Source: Candidatus Methylomirabilis sp. (GTDB lineage: Bacteria > Methylomirabilota > Methylomirabilia > Methylomirabilales > Methylomirabilaceae). From it: a stretch of DNA of 64,000 nucleotides. This document shows positions 10,312-13,826 of the stretch, piece after piece. Both the position numbers and the translations under genes were made by a program. The notes below the pieces were generated by a model that searched no databases, was not told where the DNA came from, and saw only the letters and a list, made by a program, of their open reading frames with translations. The number at the start of each line of letters is the position of its first letter. The first letter of the stretch is position 1. The stretch lies in the NCBI RefSeq assembly GCF_028716865.1, contig NZ_JAQUOY010000004.1, positions 1 to 64,000 on the forward strand, given 5' to 3'.

Positions 10312-12909
10312 ATGGCCTTTATGCGGTTTGATAAATTCACCTTTAAGGCGCAGGAGGCGATCCAGCAGGCCCAGAAGCTGGCCGAGGAGCGGGAGCATCA
10401 GGCGATTGAGGTTGAGCACCTGTTGCTGGCGCTCGTCGATCAGGCGGAAGGCGTGGTTCAGCCGATCCTGAGAAAGATGGGGGCCAATCCCGGCCAGATC
10501 GCCTCACGACTCACGGAGGAGCTGAGGCGGTTACCCAAGGTCTCGGGCGTGGCCCAGGGCCAGGTTCACATCACGCCCCGCCTGGAAAAGGTGTTAAACG
10601 GGGCGCTGTCCGAGGCGGAACGCCTGAAGGACGAGTATGTCAGCACCGAGCATCTGCTCCTGGCGATCTCTGACGAGGGCGGCGGTGCTGTCGGGAAGGT
10701 CCTGCGCGAGGCTGGAATCACCAGAGACAGAATTTACGCGGCCTTGCAGGAGATCCGGGGCAGCCAGCGCGTGACCGACCAGACCCCGGAGGAGAAGTAT
10801 CAGGCGCTGGAACGATATGCCCGCAATCTGACCGATCTGGCCAGAAAAGGGAAGTTGGACCCGGTCATCGGTCGAGACGATGAAATCCGCCGGGTGATCC
10901 AGGTCCTGGCGCGCCGGACCAAGAACAACCCGGTCCTGATCGGCGAGCCTGGCGTAGGTAAGACCGCCATCGTGGAAGGGCTGGCGCAGCGAATTGTCAG
11001 CGGGGATGTGCCGGAATCACTGAAGAACAAGCGCGTCCTCGCGCTGGACATCGGCGCGCTTGTGGCCGGAAGCAAGTACCGTGGAGAGTTTGAGGACCGG
11101 CTGAAGGCGGTCCTGCGTGAGGTTACTGAACAGGAGGGGCAGATCGTCCTGTTCATCGATGAATTGCATACGCTCGTCGGGGCCGGTGCTGCCGAAGGGG
11201 CCGTAGACGCCTCGAACATGCTCAAGCCTGCGCTGGCTCGGGGTGAGCTTCGGTGCGTGGGGGCCACGACGTTGGACGAATACCGCAAGCGGGTAGAGAA
11301 GGATGCCGCGCTTGAGCGGCGCTTCCAACCGGTTCTGGTCGGCGAGCCGTCAGTTGAGGATACCATCTCGATCCTCCGTGGCCTGAAAGAGCGGTACGAG
11401 GTCCACCACGGCGTCCGGATCAAGGACTCGGCGCTGGTGTCTGCCGCAGTCCTCAGCAACCGGTACATCGCCGACCGGTTCCTGCCGGATAAGGCGATCG
11501 ACCTGATCGATGAGGCGGCGTCACGTCTCCGGATGGAGATCGACAGTATGCCGACAGAGCTGGACGAGTTCAGTCGGCGAGCCCGACAGCTCGAGATCGA
11601 ACGCGAGGCCCTGAAGAAGGAGGCCGATTCGGAGTCGCAGGAGCGCCTTGCGCGTCTGGCAGATGAGCTCACGGAGATTCGGACGAAAGAAGAAGGGCTC
11701 AAAGCCCGCTGGGAACAGGAGAAGGGATTCATCCAGCGGATCAGGAGCCTCAAGGAGCGAATTGAGGCGGCGAAACTCCAGGAGCAGATGGCCGAACGGC
11801 AGGGAGAGCTGGGGAAGGTCGCCGAGCTCCGCTACGGCCTGATTGCGTCTCTCCAGAAAGAGATGGAATCAGAAAAACGCGGCCTCGAGCAGGTCCAGCA
11901 GGACGGCGCCCTGCTCAAGGAGGAGGTCGATGAGGAAGATATCGCTGAAGTCGTCTCCAAGTGGACCGGGATTCCGGTCTCCAGGATGTTGGAGGGGGAG
12001 ACACAGAAGCTCCTGACCATGGAAGAGAAACTCAGGGAGCGGGTGGTGGGGCAGTATGAGGCGATCACCGCGGTAAGCGATGCCATTCGCCGCGCCCGCT
12101 CGGGGCTCCAGGATCCGAATCGGCCGATCGGATCATTCATCTTCCTGGGACCGACGGGGGTAGGGAAGACCGAGCTGGCCAGGGCGCTGGCCGAGTTCCT
12201 GTTCGACGACGAGCGCGCGATGGTCCGCCTGGACATGAGCGAGTACATGGAGAAACACACGGTCTCCCGCCTGATTGGCGCGCCGCCAGGGTATGTGGGG
12301 TTCGAGGAAGGGGGCCAGCTCACCGAGGCGGTCCGGCGTCGCCCATACTCCGTCCTGCTCCTGGATGAGATCGAAAAGGCCCACAGCGACGTCTTCAATA
12401 TTCTGCTGCAGATCCTGGACGACGGCCGTCTGACCGATGGCCAGGGGCGGACCGTGGACTTCAAGAACGTGATCATTATCATGACCAGCAACCTAGGCAG
12501 CCAGGCGATTCAGGAGCTGGGCGGCCGTGATGACGAGGAGATGCGACGACGAGTAATGGAGGCCGTAAGGGCCAATTTCCGGCCGGAGTTCCTCAACCGC
12601 GTTGATGAGATGTTGATCTTTCACACCCTCTCGCTGGCCCAGATCAAAGCGATCGTGGAGATCCAGCTCAAGCGGGTGGAGAAGCGACTTGTTGAGCGAA
12701 AACTGACGCTTGAGGTGACCGATCAGGCCAAAGAGTTCCTCGCCAAAGAAGGGTACGATCCGGTCTTTGGGGCGCGGCCGCTCAGGCGAGCCATTCAGCG
12801 AGCGCTGCAGGACCCGCTGGCCCGTCGGCTGCTGGAGCATGAGTTTACCGAAGGCGACACCGTGAGGGTCGATGCGGCTCGCGGAGAACTGATCCTCAGC
12901 AAGGGATAG
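10312..12909 (+). CDS. clpB: ATP-dependent disaggregase ClpB
   Basis: 865 residues, full length. Clp N repeats at ~1-145; NBD1 with Walker [14 protein letters not shown] (~201) and Walker [12 protein letters not shown]; the coiled-coil middle domain (~400-530), which separates ClpB from ClpC/ClpA; NBD2 with [14 protein letters not shown] and sensor [10 protein letters not shown] near the C-terminus. With DnaK it threads aggregated proteins through a hexameric pore. Start ATG 10312 has AAGGAGG five bases upstream. The selenoprotein gene follows after 13 bp and may be cotranscribed; no HrcA/CIRCE-type operator is evident upstream. Confidence 0.97.
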
Positions 12910-12922
12910 AGCGGGAAGGGGT

Positions 12923-13717
12923 ATGGCACCGGTCCCGTATATCGAACAGATTCGGCGGCTCTACCCGAACGAGCCGCCTTACCAGTGGACGGTCAATCTG
13001 ACGAGTCCCTGGGCGCCGATGGTCAAGCCGGTCCGGAACTGTCGGATCGCCCTGATCAGCTCCGGGGGGATTTACCGCCCCCCGCAGGAGCCGTTCAATC
13101 CTATCAAGAACGACCTGACCTTCAAGGAGATCCCGAAAACGGCCGATCTGGCCGACCTCCGAATCTCCCACTACTCCAGGAACGCGCGGGACGTCAAAGA
13201 CCTTAACACCATCTTCCCCCTTGAGCGGTTTAGGGAATTAGAGGCTCAAGGTCTCATTGGTGAGCTGGCCTCACCGGCCTTCACCTTCATGGGTCGGATC
13301 TTCACGCGGACCAGGCTTCAGAAAGAGATGGCGCCGCATCTCATCGTTCGCCTGCGGGACATGGGCGTCGATGCGGCCTTCCTGGTCCCAGTCTGACAAT
13401 TGTGCCACCAGTCCGTGGGACTGTTCGCCCGCGCGATCGAGGAGGCCGGCATTCCCACCGTCATGCTCTCCGCTGCCCTCGATATCACCTCCTCCGTCAA
13501 ACCGCCCCGCGCCGTCTTCGTAAACTTTCCCCTCGGTCACCAGGCGGGCAAGCCTTTCGACCCGGAGGGGCAGACCCGGATCCTGCTCGACACGCTCCAT
13601 GTCCTGGAGACGGCGACCACTCAGGGCACTCTCGTCCAGCTTCCCTACAAGTGGGACGAACGCGATCCCCTGGACTCCTGGGAAGAGGAGGAGATGCTCC
13701 ACCCGTCACTGATGTGA
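12923..13717 (+). CDS. GrdB-family selenoprotein, TGA (13394-13396) read as selenocysteine
   Basis: A single 264-codon frame interrupted by TGA at codon 158. Both sides stay in the same frame and together form one GrdB-like domain (glycine/sarcosine/betaine/D-proline reductase component B family). Sequence around the stop reads FLVPV-U-QLCHQSVGLFARAIEEAG, so the TGA falls on the redox U-x-x-C position where relatives carry Cys or Sec. A hairpin with a GU-containing apical loop starts 12 bases downstream (separate entry). Start ATG 12923 has AAGGGG upstream; gene follows clpB by 13 bp. The protein is much shorter than true GrdB (~430 residues), so glycine reduction is not implied; a thiol/selenol redox role is inference. 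Decoding requires selA, selB and selC elsewhere. Confidence 0.85.
13409..13423 (+). promoter_or_regulatory. SECIS-like hairpin in the selenoprotein mRNA
   Basis: CAGTCC (13409-13414), loop GTG (13415-13417) and GGACTG (13418-13423): a perfect 6-bp stem. The first loop G is 19 nt past the TGA and the loop starts with GU, as in bacterial SECIS elements recognised by SelB. Position and loop agree with the known rule; the 3-nt loop is short. Confidence 0.7.
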
Positions 13718-13797: not shown

Positions 13798-13826
13798 TTG
13801 ACAAGAGAAGGGCGTGGGATTATTAT
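13798..13826 (+). promoter_or_regulatory. Promoter for glyA operon
   Basis: TTGACA (13798-13803), 17-bp spacer, TATTAT (13821-13826), ~50 bp before the glyA start codon. Confidence 0.78.

Follow-up and report, generated by a model that had tools for sequence, protein, structure and literature searches.

The window analyzed here, a stretch of 64,000 nucleotides from Candidatus Methylomirabilis sp., carries a PrdB-like gene immediately downstream of clpB (Table 1), in the position that a preliminary description of this DNA had given for it. The internal TGA at residue 158 and the terminal TGA are the sole stops in the 264-residue frame. The preliminary description had proposed that what looks like two short genes is one frame encoding a continuous protein, with the TGA at a U-Q-L-C site, and this reading was upheld. 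The standard ORF listing does split the gene at this codon, GC3 is 0.79 and 0.83 in the two halves with the same codon-position bias in both, and the two sides are equally constrained, as detailed below.

Table 1. Coordinates of the features at the PrdB-like locus of the window
Feature	Position	Strand	Details and basis
clpB	10312..12909	+	Ends 13 nt upstream of the PrdB-like gene
Purine-rich, ribosome-binding-like stretch	12911..12922	+	Between clpB and the ATG; putative, from sequence
PrdB-like selenoprotein gene	12923..13717	+	ATG at 12923; 264 aa with predicted Sec158; real stop is TGA 13715-13717
Internal UGA, predicted to be read as selenocysteine (U158 in U-Q-L-C-H)	13394..13396	+	TGA conservation; Cys in Pseudomonadota
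SECIS-like hairpin CAGUCC-GUG-GGACUG	13409..13423	+	Spacer of 12 nt, 13397-13408; CAGUCC, 13409-13414; loop GUG, 13415-13417; GGACUG, 13418-13423; synonymous freeze, covariation, absent in Cys homologues
Sigma-70-like promoter match (11/12)	13798..13826	+	Before the downstream glyA; consensus match only

As judged from the arrangement of the genes, clpB and the PrdB-like gene probably share a transcript, and the promoter-like match suggests that they form a unit separate from glyA. The clpB gene was found directly upstream and on the same strand in 11/11 congeners with the PrdB-like gene, and the downstream genes vary (glyA in some congeners, other genes elsewhere). In two congeners without the gene (L199:3285-3369 and L200:2541-2546), the next gene after clpB is a CoA-transferase gene, and in a third congener a CoA-transferase gene comes after the selenoprotein gene. 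Since the CoA-transferase gene follows in both states, the presence or absence of the selenoprotein gene looks like clean gene gain or loss. A further genome without the gene (G001) gave no information on this point, a contig end truncating its clpB. The adjacency to clpB was seen within the one genus, and the neighbors differ in more distant relatives, those at class level including a CoA transferase, an acyl-CoA ligase, HpaB-type enzymes, and methylmalonyl-CoA mutase. Because these neighbors differ from locus to locus, they were ruled out as a basis for proposing a pathway, and a clustering of the neighbors of 82 Cys homologues was dropped because shadow frames of GC-rich DNA dominated it. 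It was also observed that in two congeners (L140:6809-7861 and L136:4418-5996) the 3' end of the gene (residues about 238-264) is repeated 1-1.5 kb downstream; in L140 a nucleotidyltransferase and HEPN pair lies between the copies, which would fit the insertion of a small toxin-antitoxin-like module at the 3' end of the gene. In Roseomonas (L051:5971-8356), a Cys homologue adjoins a gene annotated as the protein adenylyltransferase SelO.

A search of 14 congener genomes found an orthologue in 11 (79-90% identity), which together with the window gene gave 12 genus-level sequences. Each of the 11 orthologues has exactly one internal TGA, at the same codon, which is thus unchanged in 12/12 sequences; the terminal stop is TGA in 9/12 and TAA in 3/12. 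The median dN/dS among the 12 sequences was 0.12 before and 0.09 after the internal TGA. At the level of the phylum, 95 genomes were searched (E <= 1e-20) and relatives were found in 67, and every one of the more than 100 matches listed has exactly one TGA. Genomes with several copies were common among the matches listed, the maximum being four. The alignment with Cys homologues that had been proposed as a check was carried out, and Pseudomonadota homologues have Cys at the UGA column (V-P-N-C-P-V-C-H-Q), the frame running through without interruption. Cys forms of the family were seen in Pseudomonadota only, the phylum matches listed always being the Sec form; in the contig scan for homologues, the search pattern required Cys at the Sec position, so that only Cys forms could be found.

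The genome is 99.98% complete in 53 contigs, and the search for selA, selB, selC, and selD, also proposed as a check, found all four. The scores were 604 bits for selA, 381 bits for selB (cut-off, 242), 400 bits for selD, and 67 bits for the tRNA-Sec (cut-off, 47), the last in agreement with ARAGORN (anticodon tca). The selD gene (L017, G000:C3:103676-104599) is itself a selenoprotein gene, with an in-frame TGA in SHGAG-U-ACKIS. The presence of the SelA/SelB/SelC/SelD system, together with a selD that has its own in-frame TGA, makes it very probable that this cell reads UGA as Sec.

A 6-bp stem with a GU loop had been described as starting 12 nt after the TGA. The stem and its offset were recovered, but the loop is GUG and not GU, placing the apical loop 18 nt after the UGA. 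The bacterial SECIS is characterized by a hairpin shortly after the UGA with a G in a small apical loop (PMC1088965), and the window hairpin has both of these features. Codons +3 to +9 after the TGA (TGC CAC CAG TCC GTG GGA CTG) exhibit no synonymous variation in the 12 genus-level sequences, and the surrounding codons vary. At least 5/6 stem pairs were present in 68/70 Sec genes of the phylum versus 1/19 Cys homologues (Fisher, 1e-15, a value overstated by shared ancestry). The variants kept in Sec genes were CAGUCC/GGACUG, CAGGCC/GGCCUG, CAAGCC/GGCUUG, CAGACC/GGUCUG, CACACC/GGUGUG, CGUUGC/GCAACG, and CGUAGC/GCUACG, and covariation, with both sides changed, was found at 4/6 pair positions among the 70 Sec genes. 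The mean number of stem pairs in Sec genes was 5.7, versus 4.0 predicted from the protein sequence and codon usage, and the corresponding values for the Cys homologues, the protein motif of which is similar, were 3.5 and 3.3. When one arm was slid by 1-3 bases, the mean for Sec genes fell to 1.0-2.4 pairs. For the single sequence, the hairpin strength was not rare given the protein and codon usage (p about 0.07), and longer folds of the window sequence were unremarkable (z of +0.30 and -0.25). Energy folding of longer native stretches being uninformative, the comparative stem test was used instead. An Rfam scan for the SECIS model returned no match to it, and the single hit, to an unrelated frameshift element, was attributed to chance.

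The same single TGA thus recurs in every listed phylum match, followed by a hairpin whose conservation and covariation are restricted to Sec forms, indicating that the TGA is not there by chance. The splitting of the gene in the standard ORF listing would also be expected if the TGA were a true stop and the halves were separate genes or a decayed pseudogene. However, every listed phylum homologue retains the TGA, purifying selection is as strong after it as before it, and the Cys homologues continue through this position without a break, making this reading very improbable; on these sequence comparisons, a stop, pseudogene, or sequencing error at this codon may be considered excluded for practical purposes. 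A readable frame alone cannot tell Sec from another amino acid inserted by suppression or a code change, but the genome has the full Sec system with a tRNA-Sec, Cys is the alternative residue at the TGA column, only the TGA forms retain the SECIS-like hairpin, and TGA also terminates the PrdB-like gene itself at 13715. Insertion of another amino acid is therefore extremely improbable. Decoding as Sec, previously proposed from context, is strongly supported by the sel genes, the hairpin, and the Cys homologues, and from the evolution of the sequence we regard the UGA as almost certainly decoded in this way.

The preliminary description had assigned the protein to the GrdB family. At the superfamily level this stands: the PF07355 (GRDB) score is 27.8 bits (gathering cut-off, 22), with a match confined to the C-terminal portion of the profile (216-345 of 347). 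Among curated families, however, PrdB is the nearest. The best NCBIfam model was PrdB (TIGR04483), at 165.1 bits and below its equivalog cut-off of 300, and GrdB-type models scored 41-47 bits. The protein had also been called short, and this was not borne out, 264 residues being a normal length for PrdB. In a maximum-likelihood tree, the window protein grouped with relatives from the genus and the class in a distinct clade (100/98), separate from clostridial PrdB and distant from the GrdB-like proteins of the phylum, the deep order being weakly supported; the Pseudomonadota Cys proteins were nested in another Sec subclade. The term "unrecognised" holds at most for the window locus, since descriptions of PrdB/UxxC selenoproteins date from 2005 and 2008, and these proteins ranked with the most abundant families of the Sargasso Sea and GOS surveys (PMC1088965, PMC2398784). 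Reviews also list PrdB, and 63 predicted selenoprotein genes have been noted in one Methylomirabilota MAG (2026 review, PMC13188914). A literature search on selenoproteins of the window genus found no paper beyond one review line.

Both proline reductase and glycine reductase rely on a partner protein whose pyruvoyl group activates the amine substrates (see also PMC10838667). Profile searches of the window genome with PF09338 (GrdE/PrdA type) and PrdA (TIGR04480) gave no match. The PF09338 search found partners in 10/60 relatives, on the same contigs as GrdB-like TGA genes and close to them, and these PF09338 genes were not near PrdB-like genes. A GrdA search of the window genome gave no match, and no control matched in that search either. 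In Terrisporobacter, prdB is close to prdA. The GrdB-like genes of the relatives (L181-L190) are separate genes with an in-frame TGA (S-T-U-G or A-T-U-G), close to the PF09338 genes, and have other stems (such as CGYUGC/GCARCG) at the same hairpin offset. On the basis of the profile searches, the window gene is a predicted orphan PrdB-like selenoprotein without a PrdA/GrdE-type pyruvoyl partner. Since most phylum genomes with the PrdB-like family are without the partner that defines proline and glycine reductase, the names "D-proline reductase" and "glycine reductase" are probably incorrect for the PrdB-like proteins of the phylum.

The AlphaFold model (mean pLDDT, 75; pTM, 0.80) has an alpha/beta core in which Sec158 lies between a strand (151-155) and a helix (159-174), with Cys161-His162 beside it; sequence-based and fold-based searches for relatives of solved structure returned none that was convincing. 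The modeled strand-Sec158-helix layout suits a nucleophilic selenolate with Cys161 as the resolving thiol. In the proposed mechanism, the SelA/SelB/SelC/SelD system would decode the UGA as Sec under the direction of the hairpin, and the Sec158 selenolate would then most likely attack an electrophilic small substrate, giving a selenenyl intermediate that Cys161 would resolve and cellular thiols would recycle. Because no pyruvoyl-type partner was found in the genome, Schiff-base chemistry on amines, as in D-proline or glycine reductase, is unlikely, and the substrate would then be something else. We give about even odds to the protein being a stand-alone selenol reductase of an already electrophilic small molecule. 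The co-location with clpB suggests a role in stress or detoxification. In Synergistota, a GrdB-like/GrdE-like pair has been proposed to cleave the C-F bond of fluoroacetate, suggesting that the superfamily extends beyond amino acids.

The protein could also be a genuine subunit of D-proline or glycine reductase with a partner that has diverged too far to be recognized, as its membership in the superfamily and the U-x-x-C-H motif common to PrdB might suggest. However, the score of 165 bits against a 300-bit cut-off, the clade separate from PrdB, and the lack of a PF09338 or PrdA match in a genome whose relatives yield partners near their GrdB-like genes in the PF09338 search make this unlikely. 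A little less unlikely, though still doubtful, is that the protein works with ClpB as a thiol-disulfide or protein-repair partner and is not a small-molecule enzyme. The clpB gene lies directly upstream in all genus-level loci with the gene and the model has a strand-UxxC-helix layout, but the adjacency does not hold outside the genus, two congeners have clpB without the PrdB-like gene, and the characterized relatives act on small molecules. The best overall explanation, with a probability of roughly 0.7, is a stand-alone selenoprotein of the PrdB/GrdB superfamily in which the UGA encodes Sec and the substrate would not be an amine. More tentatively, and at somewhat less than an even chance, a set of the PrdB-like selenoproteins of the phylum, including the window protein, may be single-subunit selenoenzymes without a pyruvoyl partner that act on substrates other than proline and glycine, forming an undescribed class of selenium-dependent reductases that is here tied to the ClpB stress response. 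The gene is a clear case of a Sec codon splitting a gene in a standard ORF listing, and a selenoprotein family that ranks with the most abundant in ocean samples (PMC2398784) may hold a further function.

Among known systems, PrdB, the Sec subunit of D-proline reductase (TIGR04483), has in common with the window protein its size, homology over residues 28-244, and one Sec in UxxC followed by His. The window protein differs in scoring below the equivalog cut-off, in the lack of PrdA in its genome, in forming its own clade, and in having clpB, not prdA, as the neighboring gene. GrdB (selenoprotein B of glycine/sarcosine/betaine reductase) has C-terminal domain homology and Sec at the equivalent site, and the GrdB-like genes of relatives have the hairpin at an equal offset, but GrdB is longer, and the relatives' genes lie near PF09338 genes and branch apart. 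The Pseudomonadota Cys proteins annotated as "glycine/sarcosine/betaine reductase selenoprotein B family protein" are similar in length range, have 35-42% identity, and carry Cys at the Sec column; they differ in having Cys instead of Sec, no hairpin, and another subclade and neighbors. The UxxC selenoproteins reported as "proline reductase PrdB" from the Sargasso Sea and GOS surveys (PMC1088965, PMC2398784) agree by description in the UxxC motif, in PF07355, and in the occurrence of both Sec and Cys forms.
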